Shown here: positions 54 to 8,873 of the stretch, in pieces
Position numbering within the stretch: position 1 is the stretch's first letter
How the letters are laid out: the number at the start of each line of letters is the position of its first letter
Assembly: GCA_015232395.1 (NCBI GenBank)
Contig: JADFZT010000039.1
Coordinates: 1-41,462, forward strand
DNA: 41,462 nucleotides
Direction: 5' to 3'
Source: Magnetococcales bacterium
Lineage (GTDB): Bacteria > Pseudomonadota > Magnetococcia > Magnetococcales > JADFZT01
Made by a program: the position numbers and the translations under genes
Notes under the pieces: model-generated
What the model saw: the letters and a program-made list of their open reading frames with translations, nothing else
The model's database searches: none
What the model was told of the DNA's origin: nothing

Positions 54-134
54 CAAAATCAAAAGACAGACCTTGGGGGGAAAGAATTCCCCCCAAATCC
101 CCCCATCTTTTTTTTTAATAGTATAAAGTCAAAA
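54..134 (+). repeat. 81-bp dispersed hairpin element, copy A
   Basis: This stretch aligns without gaps to the reverse complement of 9077-9157, with five mismatches in 81 positions. It contains an 8-bp stem (TTGGGGGG at 73-80, CCCCCCAA at 89-96) with an 8-nt loop, then a second C6 run and a T9 tract. Read on the plus strand this is a stem followed by T residues. It starts one base after the stop codon of the minus-strand gene at 136. It looks like a non-autonomous dispersed repeat that may also work as a terminator. Confidence 0.85.
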
Positions 135-135
135 C

Positions 136-348
136 CTATTTGAAAGCACTCCCCCAACCCCGCCAAAACACCACAATCCCCAACCCAACCAAAAACAAAT
201 TAAACCCCTCCTGAGGCATCCCAGTCACCAAATCAAGCCCCATATCCCCAACACCCAACACAAACAATACCCCACCAAAAGTCCGCATCTTAAAACCAGG
301 AGCCGCCGGAACCGGTCGAATCCCAGATACTTCAGAACCCCCACTCAT
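136..348 (-). CDS. small two-segment membrane protein
   Basis: A 70-residue protein of unrecognised family. After a short polar N-terminus it has two hydrophobic stretches, about residues 24-45 and 49-62, with a basic Arg-Gly-Trp near the C-terminus, so it is probably a small integral membrane protein with both ends on the same side. Its ATG overlaps the stop of the CcdA-like gene by four bases (ATGA), a typical sign of translational coupling in an operon. It is the last gene of the redox/metal module, and an 81-bp hairpin element follows directly. Function is unknown; a role as partner of the CcdA-like protein is only suggested by the coupling. Confidence 0.6.
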   Translation of the reverse strand: MSGGSEVSGIRPVPAAPGFKMRTFGGVLFVLGVGDMGLDLVTGMPQEGFNLFLVGLGIVVFWRGWGSAFK

Positions 349-1040
349 GGCACCAAAAAACCCAAAATAAAGGCCTTATAATAAACCATCACACCCGAAA
401 CATTCAGCCCGGCCAAAACCACCAATACCCCACCACAAACATCCAAAACCAACCGCTGCCGCCGAATCAACCAATCCTTCAAAGCAAAAATAAGTGCATA
501 AGCCACCAACCCCATGGCAAAACTCATCCCAGACCCATAAAAGAAAGCGTAAAAAGCCCCCTCCAAAGCGGTCTCAGGACGCGAACCAATCCCCAAAATG
601 ATGGAAAGCTCCGGCGTAATACAGGGGGAATAGACAAAAGAAAAAGCACAACCAATCAAAAAAGCCATGCCCGTGCCAACCCATTTACCCCGAAACCCTT
701 CAGGCCAATCCACCCGACCACTCAACAAAAAATAAAGACTCACCACCAACAAAAACCAACCCGAAGCCAACCCCAAAACGCTCAGGTTATAAGCAATCTC
801 ACGACCAATAGACCAACCCCTGGCATTCAAAGGTGCAAAAAGGATGGAAAACCCAATCAAATAACTCAAACTCGGCAGCAATACCCGAGCCTGCAAACAA
901 GGAGCCCCCTGCCCCCGATAACCCACCAGATAAAGCCCCACAATAAAAAACATGAAGAAAGGCGAAATCTGTAAAATGCACACCTGCCAGATGGAAAAAA
1001 AGTTACCAAAGCCCCCCATCAACGCCTGAATACCAGTCAC
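345..1040 (-). CDS. CcdA/DsbD-type transmembrane thiol-disulfide carrier (variant)
   Basis: A 231-residue polytopic membrane protein with about six hydrophobic segments. The motif S-P-C-I-T-P (residues 138-143) matches the second reactive-cysteine helix of CcdA/DsbD, proteins that carry electrons from cytoplasmic thioredoxin across the membrane to periplasmic thioredoxin-like proteins. In normal CcdA the first helix also has a Ser-Pro-Cys motif; here the equivalent reads S-P-F (26-28), and the nearest cysteine is C21, on the same helix. Start is GTG at 1040, overlapping the stop of the upstream gene (GTGA). The two thioredoxin-like lipoproteins just upstream are its likely clients. Family assignment is fairly sure; redox competence is open because of the missing cysteine. 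Confidence 0.75.
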   Translation of the reverse strand: MTGIQALMGGFGNFFSIWQVCILQISPFFMFFIVGLYLVGYRGQGAPCLQARVLLPSLSYLIGFSILFAPLNARGWSIGREIAYNLSVLGLASGWFLLVVSLYFLLSGRVDWPEGFRGKWVGTGMAFLIGCAFSFVYSPCITPELSIILGIGSRPETALEGAFYAFFYGSGMSFAMGLVAYALIFALKDWLIRRQRLVLDVCGGVLVVLAGLNVSGVMVYYKAFILGFLVP

Positions 1041-1555
1041 GCTACCAACTCCTCAATCCACAGATAATAATCCTCCACCACATCCTTGATATTGCCGTAA
1101 AAAATCCGCTTCACCAAACCATCCTTGCCAATAAAAACCGTGGTGGGCGGCGCGCTGACACCATAGGTGCGGGAGATCGGCTCCCCATCATCAAAACCAG
1201 CCGGAAAAGGAGGCGCCTGCTTTGCAACAAAATCCTCAAACTTACTCTCGGCATCCTGCAAACCCACCATCAGGAACTCAACCCCACGGTCGCTGAAACG
1301 CCCATGAGCTTCCTTGGTGAGAGGAATCGAATCGTGAGAACAAGGGCACCAGGAAGCCATGAAGGTGATCACCATGGGCTTGCCAGCATGGTCCGCCATG
1401 TTCCAGGTGGTTTTGCCATCCACCAGCTTCAGGGTAAAGGGAGGAGCCTGGGAGCCCACCTCCAGCAACGTACGCTTTTCACCCCCACAGCCACTCAACA
1501 CCAGGCCGACGACCAAAAGCGCCGAAAAAAATCTAGATAAGCTTGTCCAGTTCAT
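1037..1555 (-). CDS. thioredoxin-fold lipoprotein with CxC active site
   Basis: A 172-residue protein with a signal peptide and lipobox ending at C23 (L-S-G-C), so a predicted lipoprotein. The rest is a redoxin/TlpA-type thioredoxin fold: beta-strand with A-S-W-C-P-C-S (C70, C72), and a cis-proline loop A-P-P-T-T-V-F around residues 133-140. The usual active site is CxxC; here only one residue separates the cysteines, as the nucleotides TGC CCT TGT confirm. CxC sites occur in some redoxins and disulfide isomerases and tend to alter the redox potential. The gene overlaps the 3' end of the next TlpA-like gene by 23 bases. It probably reduces or isomerises thiols of a cytochrome or copper protein using electrons from the CcdA-like protein. 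Confidence 0.8.
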   Translation of the reverse strand: MNWTSLSRFFSALLVVGLVLSGCGGEKRTLLEVGSQAPPFTLKLVDGKTTWNMADHAGKPMVITFMASWCPCSHDSIPLTKEAHGRFSDRGVEFLMVGLQDAESKFEDFVAKQAPPFPAGFDDGEPISRTYGVSAPPTTVFIGKDGLVKRIFYGNIKDVVEDYYLWIEELVA

Positions 1556-2036
1556 ATTTCAACAAAGCCTCGGTCACCCCCCCCGCATGGAGATAGCTGA
1601 CCCGGCCCTCCCGGTCGATAAAATAGGTGGTAGGCATGCCGTAGACCCCAAAATCATCCTTGATCTTGCCGGTCATATCGATGCCCGTAGGGAAGGTGAT
1701 GCCCTTCTCCGACACAAACCCCTTGGCCTTCTCTTCAGTATCCTGCAAGGCCACACCCAAAAACTGAACCCCCTTGGGGCTATACTCCTGATATACCTTT
1801 TCCAGCGCCGAAGCCTCCTCGCCACAGGGAATACACCACGAAGCAAAAAAGTTGATCATCACCGGACTCCCCAGCTTCGTGGCCAGAGAAAATTCCGTAC
1901 CGTCAAAAAGCACCAGATCCAACGGGGGAGAAGGCTCCCGGGCGACAGGCGACTCACCATTGGGACACCCCCCCAAAGGCAGGGCCAGGGTAAGCAGAAA
2001 AATGAGCGTCAAATGTTTGCGGACCCATTTCAACAT
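1533..2036 (-). CDS. TlpA/ResA-like thioredoxin lipoprotein
   Basis: A 167-residue lipoprotein: hydrophobic signal with lipobox L-G-G-C (Cys about residue 24), then a TlpA/ResA-like fold with classic W-C-I-P-C active site (Cys about 68 and 71) and cis-proline loop G-M-P-T-T-Y-F. Such proteins reduce apocytochrome or copper-site cysteines in the periplasm. The ATG at 2036 was chosen over a TTG one codon upstream because GAGGAGG sits seven bases before it and because its A is shared with the TGA of the upstream gene (TGATG). It sits in a run of overlapping genes with CcmH-like, cytochrome-like and CcdA-like products, which supports a thiol-reduction role in metalloprotein maturation. Confidence 0.85.
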   Translation of the reverse strand: MLKWVRKHLTLIFLLTLALPLGGCPNGESPVAREPSPPLDLVLFDGTEFSLATKLGSPVMINFFASWCIPCGEEASALEKVYQEYSPKGVQFLGVALQDTEEKAKGFVSEKGITFPTGIDMTGKIKDDFGVYGMPTTYFIDREGRVSYLHAGGVTEALLKYELDKLI

Positions 2037-2863
2037 CAAGGTTCCTCCTCAAAGGGGGGGACAGGCAGTTTCCAGTAATAACGTCTTGGCCGCATGGAGG
2101 GGGGTTGAATGATCAACTCCGCCCCGTTGGCCGTGCGGGCTTTTTCAGCCGCTTCCAAAGGAAAAGTGAGAATCCCCTGGCGATGATGACGTTGGACATC
2201 TTCATAGAGCATCTGCCACTCCGTCGCCTGAATCGGCTTGCCATCGCCATAATCGATGGAAGTGATTTTGGCCAGGTCCCAGTTGGGAACTATGCCGGAA
2301 TGGGTGTTAAAATAGATCACAAAAAGCGGCCCATCGCCCATCTTTTCCGGTGTTTGCAGCAACAGATAGCGAATCAAACTCCGGTGGATGGTGGGAAGGT
2401 GGATCACATCGAAATAAAGATCCTCATCGCCAAAATCCATCTTCCACAGATGGCTCTTCAAAAACCGCATGATATTTTCCGGAAGCATCGTCGGAATATT
2501 GCTCAAAAAATGCTTCTGGAGATAACCGATAATCCCTTCAGCCTGGGGAGGGGTCAGATCCGCTCGATCCAATGCCCCCATGCGAGTGACGATCCACTCC
2601 CACTCCATGGCGGTTTTGGGATTGTTTTCCACCACCTCCCGGCTGTGACACTGGCGGGTGCAGCTCTTTTCGTAGAGGAGCTTGGTCTGCTTTTCCGACA
2701 GCCCCTCCGCCAACCCATGGCGATGGAGAGCCAGGGTCACCCGATCCCCGGCGTAAGCCAGATACCCCTCCGGCCCCGGCTCCACCAGCCAGAGAAAACC
2801 ACCCATGGCCACCATGCCGAGGAATAGAACAAAGAGCCCCAGAGTCACCAGAAGAGTTTTCAT
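2036..2863 (-). CDS. membrane-anchored cytochrome-like protein with CX3CH motif
   Basis: A 275-residue protein with one N-terminal membrane segment (residues 4-26) and a periplasmic body. Residues 60-115 resemble the small cytochrome c domains of quinohaemoproteins (a CxxCH stretch, then a Trp-containing helix with the pattern W-x-x-x-x-x-R-M, then a P-x-x-A helix). The haem motif, however, reads C68-T-R-Q-C72-H73: three residues between the cysteines, not two. The C-terminal 150 residues match no family I recognise. It overlaps both neighbours (ATGA with the CcmH-like gene, TGATG with the TlpA-like gene). It may be a c-type cytochrome needing special haem attachment, or a protein that has kept the fold but binds another ligand. 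Confidence 0.6.
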   Translation of the reverse strand: MKTLLVTLGLFVLFLGMVAMGGFLWLVEPGPEGYLAYAGDRVTLALHRHGLAEGLSEKQTKLLYEKSCTRQCHSREVVENNPKTAMEWEWIVTRMGALDRADLTPPQAEGIIGYLQKHFLSNIPTMLPENIMRFLKSHLWKMDFGDEDLYFDVIHLPTIHRSLIRYLLLQTPEKMGDGPLFVIYFNTHSGIVPNWDLAKITSIDYGDGKPIQATEWQMLYEDVQRHHRQGILTFPLEAAEKARTANGAELIIQPPSMRPRRYYWKLPVPPFEEEP

Positions 2864-3309
2864 TCAGCGGTCGCTTTGGCTCTCTTTTTGGCTTTGATCC
2901 GACCAACCCCCAAATAGATCCCAAAAAAGACCACCATCAGCCAAATGACCACCCCTCCCCAGAGCATCGCCCAATCCAGGGTGTCGAATCCCCGGGTGTA
3001 TTGGTAAATTTTCCCTTCAATCCGTTGCAGGGGGGTGAGTTTGGCGGAATCTCCGTAGATGCTGGTAAAGTTGTCGATGATCTCCTGCTTGGTCATCCCC
3101 TTGGCGATCAGCTCACCGATCTGGTTTTTCCACGCCAAGCCGCAGCTCATGTTGCAATCTTCCAGCACCAGGGGGCACTGGCAGGGACAGGCAAGATCCC
3201 GGGCCACCTCGGTCACCGTCAGCGCCTCTGCCGCCACCCGCCCCGGCAGAATCAATACCATCACCAAAGCCACCAAAAAAAACCACCGCAGCGGAAATCC
3301 TCTGGTCAT
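2860..3309 (-). CDS. CcmH-like cytochrome c biogenesis protein
   Basis: A 149-residue protein with signal sequence (1-27), a periplasmic CcmH/CycL/NrfF-like three-helix domain and a C-terminal membrane segment (about 112-136). CcmH normally has L-R-C-x-x-C-Q and reduces apocytochrome c before haem ligation. Here the site is L-A-C-P-C-Q-C (C41, C43, C45) with a second pair C52 and C56. The downstream pattern of K-N-Q-I, G-M-T-K-Q-E-I and Y-G-D is typical of the family. Cysteine-rich CcmH variants of this sort are known outside the enterobacterial type. No CcmF, CcmE or CcmABC is present in the window, so it either serves a full system elsewhere or has a private client, such as the neighbouring CX3CH protein. 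Confidence 0.75.
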   Translation of the reverse strand: MTRGFPLRWFFLVALVMVLILPGRVAAEALTVTEVARDLACPCQCPLVLEDCNMSCGLAWKNQIGELIAKGMTKQEIIDNFTSIYGDSAKLTPLQRIEGKIYQYTRGFDTLDWAMLWGGVVIWLMVVFFGIYLGVGRIKAKKRAKATAE

Positions 3310-3310
3310 C

Positions 3311-4111
3311 TCAGGCCTCTCTGCGCTTCACGAAAAACCACGCCCCCATGCCGATCATGAGGATAACCCCGATACCAAACATCAGATAAACCAGCACCCG
3401 GGCCTGTTTTTGGGTTTCATAGGGAGAGCCCCACACCTTGGGACCGTCCATCCGGGAATATTTAATATCCACCGAAGGGCGCTGGTCGCTCTTGGCATAG
3501 CCCACAGTGATGACCTTTTGCTCCCCCGCTTTGATGTCGTTGAGTTCATAGCGATAGTGGTTGAACCCCTTATCCTCAGCTCGGGTGGCCCCGGGGGGAT
3601 CGATGGTAAAACCGCTCGCCCGCAGAGGCTCCTGAACATCCACCTCCAAGGTTTGAATGGCGTGGTTGGAACGGATGGTATAATCCACCTTGCGCCACCC
3701 CGATTCCGGGTTGATCTGCTCGGGATCGATGGGCACATGGAAGCTCAGATAAAAGTTGGGATAGGGCATTTTCAGCATCACCTCATCCCACTCACCGTCA
3801 GGCTTGGTGGTGAAAAGCTGGCAAAAGTGCTGCCCTTCCGGGGAGAGGGAGCAGGCATCGCTCACCACCGCACCCTTGGGTATATAAAAGCTGGTCTCCA
3901 TGGGAAAAGCCGAAACATCGGTAAACCGGCCATCATAGATCGCCAAAATGCCCGGATCGTCATATTCAGGCCAGATGGCCGCACGCATGCGCCCAATCAC
4001 CTCTTCCCCGGCCATTCCCACAGCAGGCCAAAGCAGGCAGATCAGCGCAAAAAGGGACAAACCGAGACCCACGCCATGGGCTGAATCCCGGGAAAAGGAG
4101 ATGGTGTTCAT
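3311..4111 (-). CDS. periplasmic protein with C-terminal membrane anchor, unrecognised
   Basis: A 266-residue protein with a signal peptide (about 1-34, cleavage near A-M-A-G), a beta-rich periplasmic domain and a C-terminal transmembrane helix (about 239-261) followed by the basic tail K-R-R-E-A. Only two cysteines fall in the mature domain (in D-A-C-S and H-F-C-Q), which might form a disulfide. I do not recognise the family. It ends one base before the CcmH-like start, so it belongs to the same transcript and is probably exported and anchored next to it. Conserved-looking aromatic and acidic positions could suit ligand binding, but no metal motif is evident. Confidence 0.7.
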   Translation of the reverse strand: MNTISFSRDSAHGVGLGLSLFALICLLWPAVGMAGEEVIGRMRAAIWPEYDDPGILAIYDGRFTDVSAFPMETSFYIPKGAVVSDACSLSPEGQHFCQLFTTKPDGEWDEVMLKMPYPNFYLSFHVPIDPEQINPESGWRKVDYTIRSNHAIQTLEVDVQEPLRASGFTIDPPGATRAEDKGFNHYRYELNDIKAGEQKVITVGYAKSDQRPSVDIKYSRMDGPKVWGSPYETQKQARVLVYLMFGIGVILMIGMGAWFFVKRREA

Positions 4112-4172
4112 GGTTTAAAAGCTATCTTCCTTGAGGGTTGTCCGGGGTTGTTGCCCCCGATTTTTCCCACTT

Positions 4173-4194
4173 CGGATCCTTACACCAGGATCCG
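4173..4194. other. intercistronic stem-loop
   Basis: CGGATCCT (4173-4180) and AGGATCCG (4187-4194) form a perfect 8-bp stem with a 6-nt loop, in the 102-base gap between the Sco gene and the following periplasmic-protein gene. A second small stem (CGGGG/CCCCG) lies nearby at about 4143-4159. There is no T tract on the minus strand, so this is more likely an attenuating or mRNA-processing hairpin than a strong terminator. Confidence 0.45.
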
Positions 4195-4213
4195 GGTTAG
4201 ATTCCGTGGATTT

Positions 4214-4888
4214 TCAGGACTCCTCACCCGCGATGAGTTCCCGGATTTTGGTGATTTCGAAGGCGATCTTCCGGGGATATTGTTCTCCCTGGAAAAGGGC
4301 CACCAACCGGGCCCGGGGATCCACCATGAAGATACCCGAGGAGTGGCTCACCGTATAACCCTCCTCCCCTTCCTTGGGTGGATCGATAAAATAGCCCGCT
4401 CCCACCTGCTTGGCCAAAATATCGATCTGGGGTTTGGAACCGCTCACCCCGACAAAGCCGGGATTAAAATAGCTCACATACTCTTTGAGTATCGGGTTGG
4501 TATCCCGTTGGGGATCCACCGAAACAAAAATCACCTGAAGCTCTCGACCGATGAGGGTGTCGGTCTGCAAAATGTCATACACCTCGGTCAAAACCCCCAT
4601 GGAAACCGGGCAGACATCCGGGCAGTGGGTGTAGCCAAAAAAGATCAAACTCCACTTGCCCCGCATCCGATCCCGATCAAAAAGGCGACCGTCAGCATCC
4701 TTGAGGGCGAAGGGTTTCAGGGGTTTGGGGCCGGGGAGCAAAATTCCGAACAGCTCTTCAGGCACATTTTCCCACACCGCCCCATCGTCTGAAGCATTCT
4801 CTCCACCGCTCATAAAAAAAACGGCGCTGCCGATGAGAGCGACCAGGGTCAAGGCGGCAACCGCCATCAGGAGTGTCTTGTTTTTCAT
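4214..4888 (-). CDS. Sco1/SenC/PrrC family copper chaperone
   Basis: A 224-residue protein with an N-terminal membrane anchor (residues 5-26) and a Sco thioredoxin fold. All three copper ligands of the family are visible: C89 and C93 in G-Y-T-H-C-P-D-V-C-P, and H182 in V-S-H-S-S-G. The S-V-D-P-Q-R-D motif (about 123-129) is also typical. Sco proteins deliver copper to, or reduce, the CuA centre of cytochrome oxidases and nitrous-oxide reductase. No oxidase or NosZ gene is in the window. Its placement at the head of a thioredoxin/CcdA/CcmH run, and next to a Met-rich secreted protein, suggests a copper-enzyme maturation unit. Confidence 0.9.
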   Translation of the reverse strand: MKNKTLLMAVAALTLVALIGSAVFFMSGGENASDDGAVWENVPEELFGILLPGPKPLKPFALKDADGRLFDRDRMRGKWSLIFFGYTHCPDVCPVSMGVLTEVYDILQTDTLIGRELQVIFVSVDPQRDTNPILKEYVSYFNPGFVGVSGSKPQIDILAKQVGAGYFIDPPKEGEEGYTVSHSSGIFMVDPRARLVALFQGEQYPRKIAFEITKIRELIAGEES

Positions 4889-4977
4889 CTGTCAAAGGGG
4901 TCCATTGCAATGGAGGGAACACAAACCCCGCCCACCGGAAAATTCATTCAGGGGAGAGGCAGAGTGATTGGAAGGAT

Positions 4978-5082
4978 TTAAAAAACGTATATGAAGAGAA
5001 TCCCCAGAATGACCACCACGTTGGTTGCCATGCCGAGAAAAATCACCGTGTCGGAAAGGTGTTCCTTTTTGAAAAATTTCAT
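4978..5082 (-). CDS. 34-residue single-span membrane peptide
   Basis: A short ORF between the Met-rich protein and the Sco gene: M-K-F-F-K-K-E-H followed by one strongly hydrophobic helix (about residues 11-33) ending in V-F. Positive residues at the N-terminus predict the N-terminus inside. The second ATG was chosen because a GGGGT element lies about seven bases before it; an ATG two codons upstream (5088) has almost no spacing. Small one-helix proteins of this size often accompany respiratory oxidases or their assembly factors, which would suit the Sco neighbour, but there is no sequence family I recognise. Too short to be certain it is expressed. Confidence 0.5.
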   Translation of the reverse strand: MKFFKKEHLSDTVIFLGMATNVVVILGILFIYVF

Positions 5083-5284
5083 GATCATACCCCAGTAGTG
5101 GCCCGAAGCGTTGGTGGGTGGAGTCGTTTTTTTTACTAACCGGGCTTCTCCTCTTTGGCGGGTTGATCAACCTGAAAAGAGGTGCTGCTCTGGCCCGAAC
5201 CAGGAAGTTTAACTGTCCACCGGGTTTGGTACAAGCGGGTGTAGGGGATTGTTGGCTGGGAGGTGATGTTTCGGGGAAACCTCT

Positions 5285-5314
5285 GACCGGGGGCGGTGGG
5301 GCGTGCCCCCGGTC
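5285..5314 (-). terminator. strong GC stem-loop after the Met-rich gene
   Basis: GACCGGGGGC (5285-5294) pairs perfectly with GCCCCCGGTC (5305-5314) around a 10-nt loop, about 30 bases past the stop of the minus-strand gene at 5344. It lacks a following T tract, so termination would be Rho-dependent or partial; alternatively it protects the 3' end of the mRNA. The rest of 5089-5343 holds no convincing gene. Confidence 0.5.
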
Positions 5315-5343
5315 GGGTGTTCGGATTCAGCTCACTCTTTTCT

Positions 5344-6348
5344 TCAGCCCATCAGTTCCTGAAGTTTTTTCAGGTTGGCTTTGATGAGGCTCATTTCTGC
5401 CGCAGGGATCAGGGGACGGGGCATGCCGGCGTCCACCATGGCGGTTTTCATGTTGGAGATGTGGGCATCCATCTGTGCGAGCATTTTGGCTTTTTGCTCT
5501 TTGGGGATGTTTTTGTCGTTTTCGATGCGTTTTCTCTGCTTGGCGATTTCAGTTTCCTGCTGCGCCATCATCCGGGCCATCATTTTTTTCTGCTTGGCCT
5601 GCATCTGCTCCTGGGTGAGGGGCTTGACGGGATTGTCGATGGCATCCAGAAGCCGCTTTTTCTCCGCCTGGGGAATCATGGGGTTGTTCTGGATCATCTG
5701 CTTGCGCCAGGCATTTTGACGGGCTTGCATCGCCTTTTGCTGGGCTTCCATCGCCTTTTGCATCGCCTTTTGCTGGGCTTGCCAGGGATTATTGGACTGC
5801 CAGCTGGGGGTTTTGTTCATATGGGCCATGCGCAGGGATTGGTCCATCTGGGCCAACATCATGCGCTTTTGGTGGGGGGGGATGGTGGGGTTGTTCATGA
5901 TCTGCTTCTTTTGTGCCACCACCTGGGCTTTCATCTGACCGTGGGCATCCTGGGTCATCTCTTTCATCTTGGCTTTGCCCTCAGCCATTTTTTTCTTCAG
6001 GTCGGCAGATCCCTTGGTCATCATCGCCTGGCTTTCGATCACCCGCAGGCCGGTGGTGACGTTATCCAGCATATAAAAGAAGCGCTCGGCGTCCCACTCC
6101 TGGGCTTTGAGCTGCTTGCCGAAATCCTTGTCGTAGCGCATTCCGGCCATCATCCATGACCGATCCTGATCGGCCGGCCCCAGGTTTTGCTTGTTTACCC
6201 AGGCAGCGAGGGTGCTGTAATCACCAATAAATTTGGCCATTTCCTGTTCTGAAAACGGCTTTTGATCCCACGGATTACCAGCCTGCACCGATCCTGAAAA
6301 AGCCAGCACCAAGGCAAGCAACCCCCCCAACAACGCGATTCTTTTCAT
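5344..6348 (-). CDS. secreted methionine- and glutamine-rich repeat protein
   Basis: A 334-residue protein with a clean signal peptide (cleavage after V-Q-A, residue 23). The mature chain is predicted almost wholly helical, very rich in Met (35 in all), Lys and Gln. A ~23-residue unit with the pattern K-x-x-I/M-x-N-N-P-x-I-P-x-x-x-K-x-x-x-L-x-x-M-D occurs three times (about 147-169, 215-238, 271-294), joined by Met-Gln-Lys-Ala coiled-coil-like linkers. There are no cysteines. Clustered methionines in a periplasmic protein next to a Sco gene suggest Cu(I) binding or buffering, but this is inference; a structural or chaperone role is equally possible. AGAGGA precedes the ATG. A separate transcript from the Sco operon is likely. 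Confidence 0.75.
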   Translation of the reverse strand: MKRIALLGGLLALVLAFSGSVQAGNPWDQKPFSEQEMAKFIGDYSTLAAWVNKQNLGPADQDRSWMMAGMRYDKDFGKQLKAQEWDAERFFYMLDNVTTGLRVIESQAMMTKGSADLKKKMAEGKAKMKEMTQDAHGQMKAQVVAQKKQIMNNPTIPPHQKRMMLAQMDQSLRMAHMNKTPSWQSNNPWQAQQKAMQKAMEAQQKAMQARQNAWRKQMIQNNPMIPQAEKKRLLDAIDNPVKPLTQEQMQAKQKKMMARMMAQQETEIAKQRKRIENDKNIPKEQKAKMLAQMDAHISNMKTAMVDAGMPRPLIPAAEMSLIKANLKKLQELMG

Positions 6349-6667: not shown

Positions 6668-8071
6668 ATGTACGTACGCAAAATCGAAGTCAAAAATCTC
6701 AAAATGCTGGAGCATTTCATCTGGGAGCTGCCGGAAGATGTCGCCGCTCCGGGATGGCATGTCTGGCTGGGAGATAACGGCTCCGGCAAATCGACCCTGG
6801 TTCGCGCCTGCGCAGCAACGTTGATCGGTCCCCGGGATGCCATGGCTTTGAGGCAACCCTGGGGGGGATGGGTGCGCCAGGACAAAGAAAGAGCCACGGT
6901 TAGACTCGAACTTACCTGGGATAATGAATGGGATAGATGGGCCAGTGTGGACGATATCTGTACTTTAGAAGTTGAGGCCCTAGCCCATGAAGGAGAAATG
7001 GTCGAAAAAAAAGATTTAGGAGCATATGCCGAAAGAGTACATTTAGACATTAATAGATGCCTCGAAGAAAAAATCATACCTCTCGAAATACAAATCGACA
7101 AAATAAACAGGTCTTTTTTTGAAAGCCAAGGACTTTTCCCACCCCCTTTTAATCATGCTTGGGGCTACTGGAAAGGGTGGTTTGCAGCAGCCTACGGCCC
7201 ATTTCGTCGCTTTTCTGGAGGTGGACAAGAGTATAGAGAATTATTTAAAAACCAATCACGCATCTCTCGTTTTTTGTCAGCCTTCGGTGATGACGTAGCT
7301 CTGACTGAGGTAGAACACTGGCTTATGCACCTACGATTTGCCCAGCTGGAACGAAAATCTCTTTTTATGTCCGGCCATACTAAACCACCACCCGTATTGC
7401 TGGACAACCTGATCCACTTCATTAACCATCCTGGATTCCTACCCAACAGAGTACAACTCAAGGAAGTGAATTCTAATGGAATTCAATTTATTGATAGTAA
7501 CGGCTGCCAAATTGACATGAACGACCTGAGCGACGGCTTCCGCTCCATCCTCAGCATGACCTTTGAACTAATCCGCCAGCTAGCTGCCACGTACAGAGAA
7601 GATCGCCTTTTCAATGAGGACAACACCCAGATCCTAGCCCCCGGCGTGGTGTTCATCGATGAAGTGGACGCCCATCTCCATCCCCGCTGGCAGCGGGATA
7701 TCGGACCCTGGCTGACGAAGCTCTTTCCCAACATCCAGTTTTTCGTCACCACCCACAGTCCTCTGGTGTGTCAGGGTGCGGTGAAGGGGTCGGTTTGGCG
7801 TTTGCCTGATCCCGTTGGAGAGGGGGGGCATCCTGGGGGGCAGGTCAAAGGAGAGGCGCTCAATCGGCTGCTTTATGGCAACATTTTGGAAGCTTATGGA
7901 TCCGGGGCGTTTGGTCCAGGGATCAATCGCTCTGAAGAGGGGCATCAGTTGCTGATGGAATTTGCCAAGCTGAATCAGAGGAGTTTCAGAGGGCAACTGT
8001 CACCGGAGGAAGAGGTCAGGAGGCAGGAACTGAACGGGATTTTCAGCGCCACCCTCCCGGAAGACGATTGA
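6668..8071 (+). CDS. ptuA: Septu defence ATPase PtuA
   Basis: A 467-residue SMC/ABC-like ATPase of the AAA_21/AAA_15 group. Visible motifs: Walker A G-D-N-G-S-G-K-S-T (35-43), ABC signature-like L-S-D-G-F-R-S (about 285-291), Walker B with V-F-I-D-E-V-D-A-H-L-H-P (about 327-338), and the switch His in T-T-H-S-P (about 361). The next gene, starting five bases after this one ends, encodes an HNH nuclease; this ATPase-HNH pair is the Septu antiphage system, in which PtuA sits in a complex with PtuB and controls DNA or RNA cleavage on infection. The middle of the gene (about 6950-7500) is visibly richer in A and T than its neighbours, as expected for a transferred defence cassette. Confidence 0.85.
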   Translation: MYVRKIEVKNLKMLEHFIWELPEDVAAPGWHVWLGDNGSGKSTLVRACAATLIGPRDAMALRQPWGGWVRQDKERATVRLELTWDNEWDRWASVDDICTLEVEALAHEGEMVEKKDLGAYAERVHLDINRCLEEKIIPLEIQIDKINRSFFESQGLFPPPFNHAWGYWKGWFAAAYGPFRRFSGGGQEYRELFKNQSRISRFLSAFGDDVALTEVEHWLMHLRFAQLERKSLFMSGHTKPPPVLLDNLIHFINHPGFLPNRVQLKEVNSNGIQFIDSNGCQIDMNDLSDGFRSILSMTFELIRQLAATYREDRLFNEDNTQILAPGVVFIDEVDAHLHPRWQRDIGPWLTKLFPNIQFFVTTHSPLVCQGAVKGSVWRLPDPVGEGGHPGGQVKGEALNRLLYGNILEAYGSGAFGPGINRSEEGHQLLMEFAKLNQRSFRGQLSPEEEVRRQELNGIFSATLPEDD

Positions 8072-8075
8072 CACC

Positions 8076-8873
8076 ATGATCAAGCTCGCCAGCCCAAAGC
8101 TCGATCCAGCCAATCAAGCCTATCTGGACAAAAAACAACGGGAAGTAAATCAATCCGGGAGTTATGGCGATCAAGTTGATGCAGCGAAAACAAAATGGAA
8201 AAACAAAAGCGACAACCATTTTGGTGCCATCCGAAATGTATTGTCAGGAATGACCCATATCGGTCGGCGTTGCCACTATTGTGAGGACTCATACGCTGAC
8301 GAGGTGGAACACATCAAGCCAAAAAATCTCTATCCGGATGAAGCCTTTCAGTGGTCCAACTATCTCTTTTCATGCGGCCCCTGTAACGGCAGCCACAAAA
8401 ATGACCAATTCGCCGTCTTCGATGCCCAGGGACAATTTCACGACATCACTCGCGGCGACAAAGATCCCGTCATCCCTCCCATTCCAGGCGATCCCGCGTT
8501 CATCGATCCCCGAGCGGAAGATCCCATGGATTTTTTGTTTCTCGATCTCATCACATTCGCTTTCCTGCCCCATGCGGATAAAGGCAGGGATGCTCTGAAA
8601 GCGGATTTCACCATCAACACGCTGGGGCTGAACACCCGCACCGAGTTGGTCGATATGCGCAAAAAGGCATTTCGGGACTTCAAGGCCAGGCTGAAGGTTT
8701 ATGTCCAGGAAAAACAGGCTGGCCGGGACATCTCTGACCTGGAAAAAATGCACGAACTGTTTTGGCGAGAGCCCCACGCCAGCGTCTGGCGGGAGATGGT
8801 TCGTAGCCAACCAAAAATCCCGGAACTCAAGAAACTCTTCCAGCAAGCCCCGGAGTTGATGCTGCCACCGTGA
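8076..8873 (+). CDS. ptuB: Septu defence HNH nuclease PtuB
   Basis: A 265-residue protein with an HNH core in its N-terminal half: zinc knuckle C66-H-Y-C69, the catalytic histidine region D-E-V-E-H79-I, the central asparagine segment W-S-N95-Y, and the second zinc pair C100-G-P-C103 followed by N-G-S-H-K-N. The C-terminal half is helical and charged, suited to binding the ATPase. It follows ptuA by four bases and is co-transcribed. No reverse transcriptase or retron RNA is next to it, so this is a stand-alone Septu rather than a retron-Septu hybrid. Confidence is high for HNH nuclease and good for PtuB. Confidence 0.85.
   Translation: MIKLASPKLDPANQAYLDKKQREVNQSGSYGDQVDAAKTKWKNKSDNHFGAIRNVLSGMTHIGRRCHYCEDSYADEVEHIKPKNLYPDEAFQWSNYLFSCGPCNGSHKNDQFAVFDAQGQFHDITRGDKDPVIPPIPGDPAFIDPRAEDPMDFLFLDLITFAFLPHADKGRDALKADFTINTLGLNTRTELVDMRKKAFRDFKARLKVYVQEKQAGRDISDLEKMHELFWREPHASVWREMVRSQPKIPELKKLFQQAPELMLPP

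Follow-up and report, generated by a model that had tools for sequence, protein, structure and literature searches.

A conserved periplasmic thiol-redox and copper gene set in a Magnetococcales bacterium is associated with the clade III nitrous oxide reductase L-NosZ and may take part in its assembly

Several described systems resemble the locus reported here, each in a different respect. Canonical NosDFY/NosL serves the copper sites of nitrous oxide reductase, while TlpA-ScoI of Bradyrhizobium combines TlpA-like lipoproteins with Sco for a CuA protein, with ScoI and COX II being reduced by TlpA before metallation (PMC6696091). System I CcmFGH/NrfEFG comprises a CcmH-family protein, thioredoxin-like proteins and a CcdA-like carrier. 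The enzyme L-NosZ, i.e. the clade III lactonase-type nitrous oxide reductase, is itself known (He et al. 2025, Nature 646:152-160, as cited in PMC13122619). By analyzing a 41,462-nucleotide stretch of DNA from a Magnetococcales bacterium (GenBank JADFZT010000039.1; hereafter the window), which makes up the whole of C39, one of 170 contigs in the draft genome, we found a minus-strand gene set that, on balance, we read as a dedicated periplasmic thiol-redox and copper assembly module for L-NosZ. In order of transcription, it encodes a Sco copper protein, an anchored AIWPEYDD protein, a CcmH-like protein, an anchored CX3CH protein, a CxxC thioredoxin, a CPC thioredoxin, a CcdA-like carrier and a membrane protein of 70 amino acids. 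The association with L-NosZ is well supported by linkage and co-occurrence.

The module would share its task with NosDFY/NosL, but is instead based on thioredoxins, CcmH and Sco. Compared to TlpA-ScoI, it adds the CPC thioredoxin and the CcmH-like, CX3CH and AIWPEYDD proteins, and its probable client is L-NosZ. Unlike System I and NrfEFG, the set includes no CcmF, and its CcmH-like protein carries extra cysteines (CPCxCP..DCNM[ST]CG). A protein of the AIWPEYDD family is also common to the module and to CcmF/CcmH loci of Chloroflexi, Poribacteria and Actinomycetota, whereas an FCxxCG tail is found only in the latter. With regard to the L-NosZ family, the enzyme has been described and the module is its presumed assembly set.

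A search with the AIWPEYDD protein in bacterial and archaeal species genomes identified ten loci, six with the module or parts of it and four without (genomes and loci are referred to by G and L numbers where they need to be told apart). The six module loci were found in metagenome-assembled genomes (MAGs) named Sedimenticola, Gammaproteobacteria, Proteobacteria and 'Deltaproteobacteria' GWF2_42_12. Their shared order is AIWPEYDD protein, CcmH-like protein, CX3CH protein, CxxC thioredoxin, CPC thioredoxin and CcdA-like protein, rearranged in L003, and the CxxC thioredoxin gene was not seen in its usual place in L004, L084 and L089. Searching with the CX3CH protein among relatives of the same order gave nothing outside its own genome; the homologues sit in other lineages. 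The core order thereby recurs in distantly related bacteria, and the scattering of the genes among relatives, which a preliminary description of the window had named as a sign against a module, was not observed, as the set stays together. The odd cysteine patterns pointed out in that description were likewise kept in homologues from other genomes. Since both the genes and these motifs are conserved in other genomes, the gene set is more than a chance grouping.

The target enzyme had been described as missing, but is in fact encoded elsewhere in the draft genome. Using the NCBIfam equivalog NF052460 (cut-off 700 bits), we found a single L-NosZ copy on contig C6 (L014:10949-12709, 785.8 bits), with the CuA motif CX3CX3HX2M (YCQHFCGPLHLEM) and the invariant propeller histidine columns. 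It is 77% identical to the protein of L006, one of three loci (L006, L007 and L008) where a beta-propeller/CuA protein homologous to solved nitrous oxide reductases, scoring up to 789 bits with NF052460, adjoins the module. Scores of the homologues in the phylum of G065 ranged from 662 to 779 bits, with two just short of the cut-off. In GWF2_42_12 (L043), L-NosZ lies 210 bp downstream of the CcdA-like gene on the same strand, and in G578 (L083) it is situated 102 bp from the module. The two are divergent in G064 (L044) and G272 (L041), and are found on one contig in G061, G460 and G467. We also considered that the set could be an ordinary sco/tlpA locus, with assembly factors for the CuA site of cytochrome oxidase, since CuA assembly is the classic role of Sco and TlpA-like proteins (PMC6696091). 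This seems very improbable, as the conserved neighbor at independent loci is L-NosZ, itself a CuA protein, with its cytochrome b/c genes, although no systematic search for oxidase genes was made. The possibility of a known ccm/sco locus beside its oxidase was not borne out; the set tracks L-NosZ.

The same association was apparent from two genome samples. Of 398 evenly sampled Pseudomonadota genomes, two had L-NosZ and three the AIWPEYDD protein, the two with L-NosZ being among the three. Among 345 genomes from the phylum of G065, eight had L-NosZ (one as a fragment), eight had the full CX3CH protein (one in two pieces) and seven had both. Another 12 genomes of the first sample and three of the second had NosZ matches of a more distant kind, which we counted as canonical, and none of these 15 harbored the module marker. 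Being made of broadly used families, the set might alternatively be a periplasmic system for thiol reduction or cytochrome c maturation in general, lying near L-NosZ by chance. We regard this as improbable in view of the tight co-occurrence and the lack of the marker protein in 395 of the 398 Pseudomonadota genomes. A general Ccm role was rejected because G000, G061 and G064 have separate canonical CcmH copies elsewhere in the genome; in G065, the CcmH of the module is the only one found. The proposal of an envelope maturation module with a dedicated, unusual client is hence supported, as the conserved set tracks one cuproenzyme, and the module very probably serves L-NosZ respiration.

The genes that normally accompany NosZ were largely lacking. 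None of 13 L-NosZ genomes had NosD (TIGR04247) above the cut-off, compared to five out of five canonical-NosZ controls, while NosL (PF05573) was not found in G000 and was present in a single one of seven module-bearing genomes. The L-NosZ cluster of G647 (L087:5363-6961, minus strand) includes a beta-helix repeat region that weakly resembles NosD (58 bits) and is joined to a c-type cytochrome in one protein; it is possibly a trace of, or a substitute for, NosD. Other L-NosZ clusters (L042:1-3888, L045:5989-10248 and L085:1-3786) contain genes for an ABC ATPase, a GldF-like permease, a GldG-like protein and a DUF4340-like protein, all named by eye, which might replace NosFY. A HemG-like flavoprotein also recurs near L-NosZ (L014:1678-3120, L041:3619-5076, L042:15163-16581, L045:14011-15456 and L008:422-1864). 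Furthermore, a long membrane protein that by eye is cytochrome bd-like, but without an NCBIfam match, is found near the L-NosZ of the source genome (L014:6322-8742) and has relatives in L041 and L082.

All nine minus-strand open reading frames of the preliminary description were found in place, seven of them overlapping or nearly touching. These seven genes (136-4111) are separated by a gap of 1 bp or overlap by 4-23 bp, and the Sco gene is situated 102 bp upstream of the run. The positions are collected in the table.

Table. Features of the gene set in the window, in order of transcription (minus strand, i.e. from higher to lower positions)
Feature	Position	Strand	Remarks
Sco copper protein	4214-4888	-	PF02630, E=2e-37
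Anchored periplasmic protein, AIWPEYDD family	3311-4111	-	Two beta-sandwiches and C-terminal transmembrane helix; homologues beside CcmH-like genes
CcmH-like protein	2860-3309	-	CPCxCPLxLEDCNMSCGLxWK, C-terminal transmembrane helix; PF03918, E=8e-8, over cut-off
Membrane-anchored CX3CH protein	2036-2863	-	c-type-cytochrome-like domain and beta-sandwich domain, invariant NTH and HH
TlpA/ResA-like lipoprotein thioredoxin, CIPC	1533-2039	-	PF00578, E=1e-23
Lipoprotein thioredoxin, CPC replacing CxxC (WCPCS)	1037-1555	-	PF00578 (AhpC-TSA, ResA-like), E=2e-18
CcdA-like membrane thiol/electron carrier	345-1040	-	FxxWQxC and Y[SA]PCI.P motifs
Small membrane protein, 70 amino acids	136-348	-	Overlaps CcdA-like gene by 4 bp
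Terminator-like hairpin	72-97	-	11 pairs, T-rich tail, 3' of last gene; consensus match only

Conservation extends to the individual motifs. WCPCS was kept in 12 out of 12 homologues of the CPC thioredoxin, and the CcmH-like motif, CPCxCPLxLxDCNM[ST]CGLxWK, in 11 out of 11 with small variations, while homologues of the CIPC thioredoxin occur in the same order at most module loci. In the window, this TlpA-like thioredoxin is encoded together with a Sco protein whose CX3C motif reads CPDVC, and G061 (L042:6637-7314) and G064 (L044:1657-2343) likewise have a Sco gene close to L-NosZ or to the module. The match of the CcdA-like protein to DsbD_TM (PF02683) is sub-threshold (14.6 bits, cut-off 27.1); the two conserved transmembrane cysteines of CcdA/DsbD type, in WQxC and Y[SA]PCI.P, are present in the module homologues. 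For the 70-residue protein, weak homologues adjoin the module at two loci (L003:7002-7184 and L007:7459-7671). A peptide of 34-36 residues (5088-4978) and a methionine-rich protein (6348-5344), which the preliminary description had counted as members, were without homologues among the related loci L003-L012, and were therefore dropped from the set, to which nothing ties either of them.

The main rival to copper assembly concerns heme. In this alternative, which is possible but clearly less probable, the module is a dedicated branch of c-type cytochrome maturation, similar to NrfEFG, that acts on its own CX3CH cytochrome, which in turn would pass electrons to L-NosZ. Handling of the apocytochrome thiols would fall to the CcmH-like protein and the thioredoxins, with a general heme lyase attaching the heme. 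The CX3CH motif, which was found in all of 11 distinct homologues (CTRxCH, once CTGLCH), as opposed to CXXCH in the small relatives (cytochromes) outside the module, is consistent with such a role, as is the presence of a CcmH family member in the set. The same applies to the match of the CX3CH protein to the c-type cytochrome SorB, which is weak and under the curated cut-off (E=4e-5), and its N-terminal part gave PDB profile matches to cytochromes (E=0.001-0.06). The occurrence of the AIWPEYDD protein beside CcmH and CcmF in Chloroflexi and Poribacteria also fits. On the other hand, the heme alternative leaves Sco and the CPC thioredoxin unexplained, heme attachment at CX3CH is only putative, and a second CcmF is nowhere seen. 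CcmF was found neither in the set in the window nor in G065, G460, G578 and G647, four L-NosZ genomes with the complete module (some of these genomes being incomplete), and where it was found there was one copy only. Genomes with the module but without detectable CcmF still encode many CXXCH cytochromes. As four genomes with the set have no CcmF, the set is not simply a Ccm heme-lyase set, and of the initially suggested maturation of copper or heme enzymes, the unusual dedicated client has held up, while heme attachment has become less likely.

The C-terminal domain of the CX3CH protein points in another direction. Its structure model is of middling confidence (predicted local distance difference test, pLDDT, 77), and Foldseek gave no significant match with the model of the protein. 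Structural matches of the domain (VIA) included a DUF4426 protein (Z 8.7), CrdA (8.0), HftA (7.6), FetP (7.0) and P19 (about 6.6), with values of 6.4-8.0 for CrdA, HftA, FetP and P19 taken together, all near background. Together with the invariant NTH and HH, the best of these matches hint that the modeled domain may bind copper. Other genomes encode relatives of the domain on their own (L077:1246-1749, L078:331-864 and L079:1480-2061), with conserved NTH/DTH and HH, and none of these standalone proteins matched a Pfam family above the threshold.

The AIWPEYDD protein (266 amino acids) had no Pfam or NCBIfam match, and its homologues adjoin CcmH-like genes in Proteobacteria, Chloroflexi, Poribacteria and Actinomycetota. 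Its model (pLDDT 82.7) has OST1/ribophorin I as the best fold match (Z 15), and also resembles the N-terminal sandwiches of M1 aminopeptidases, a likeness that tells the predicted fold but gives no function. The four loci without the module (L009-L012), from MAGs labelled Chloroflexi, Ktedonobacter, Poribacteria and Actinomycetota, encode a version ending in a zinc-ribbon-like FCxxCG tail, with CcmH-type genes near three of them and CcmF-type genes, judged by eye, near two. This tailed family appears as a Ccm-associated protein without a family model.

Returning to copper assembly, we infer every chemical step of the module as follows. The CcdA-like protein would bring electrons across the membrane to the CxxC and CPC thioredoxin lipoproteins, which may keep the cysteines of their partners reduced. 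Likely targets are the cysteines of Sco, those of the L-NosZ CuA site and those of the CcmH-like and CX3CH partners. Copper would be handed over by Sco, and perhaps also by the histidine-rich C-terminal domain of the CX3CH protein, while the CcmH-like and AIWPEYDD proteins could act as a platform for docking and thiol exchange. The action of TlpA on ScoI and COX II in Bradyrhizobium (PMC6696091) provides a precedent. Several observations speak against this scheme. A CcmH relative and a cytochrome-like domain suit heme work better than copper work, Sco is linked at only some loci, and the AIWPEYDD family also accompanies CcmF/CcmH in Chloroflexi and other groups, the four genomes concerned having yielded no close L-NosZ. 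The Fisher values for the co-occurrence counts given above, 3.8e-5 for the 398 genomes and 5.9e-13 for the 345, are optimistic and overstate independence because the sampled genomes are related. Likewise, distances among the L-NosZ proteins are correlated with distances among the CX3CH proteins (r=0.85) and among the CPC thioredoxins (r=0.79), which linked evolution predicts but which shared ancestry alone may also give. Lastly, G423 has L-NosZ with no CX3CH protein seen, and G062 has the module with no L-NosZ detected, both being small genomes that are possibly incomplete. Taking these points into account, we still lean towards copper-site and thiol assembly as the main job of the module. A bolder version, which we consider doubtful, is a new machine for cuproenzyme assembly, with a hybrid heme-copper CX3CH chaperone and the CPC thioredoxin at its center, that would replace NosDFY/NosL for clade III enzymes. 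It would hold heme at the CX3CH N-terminus and copper at the histidine-rich C-terminus, and couple copper reduction to insertion.

The surroundings of the gene set in the window were also noted. The contig begins inside a TTAAAAGATT tandem repeat (positions 1-45), which is probably the cause of the assembly break. On the other side of the set, an AAA ATPase and HNH pair on the plus strand (6668-8873) constitutes a Septu-type PtuA/PtuB anti-phage system (452 and 314 bits, respectively).

A literature search found no description of the module or of L-NosZ accessory genes, with the defining paper on L-NosZ (He et al. 2025) lying outside the literature searched, and the novelty of the module is therefore conditional. 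L-NosZ is a recently recognised copper enzyme that consumes the greenhouse gas N2O, and as its genomes were without NosD and mostly without NosL, the copper supply of the enzyme becomes a question. The linked and conserved set offers a concrete list of candidate assembly factors, whose invariant CX3CH and CPC motifs suggest unusual chemistry. The module may also serve as a marker by which functional L-NosZ is recognised in metagenomes, and its genes would be the ones to co-express when the enzyme is to be produced.

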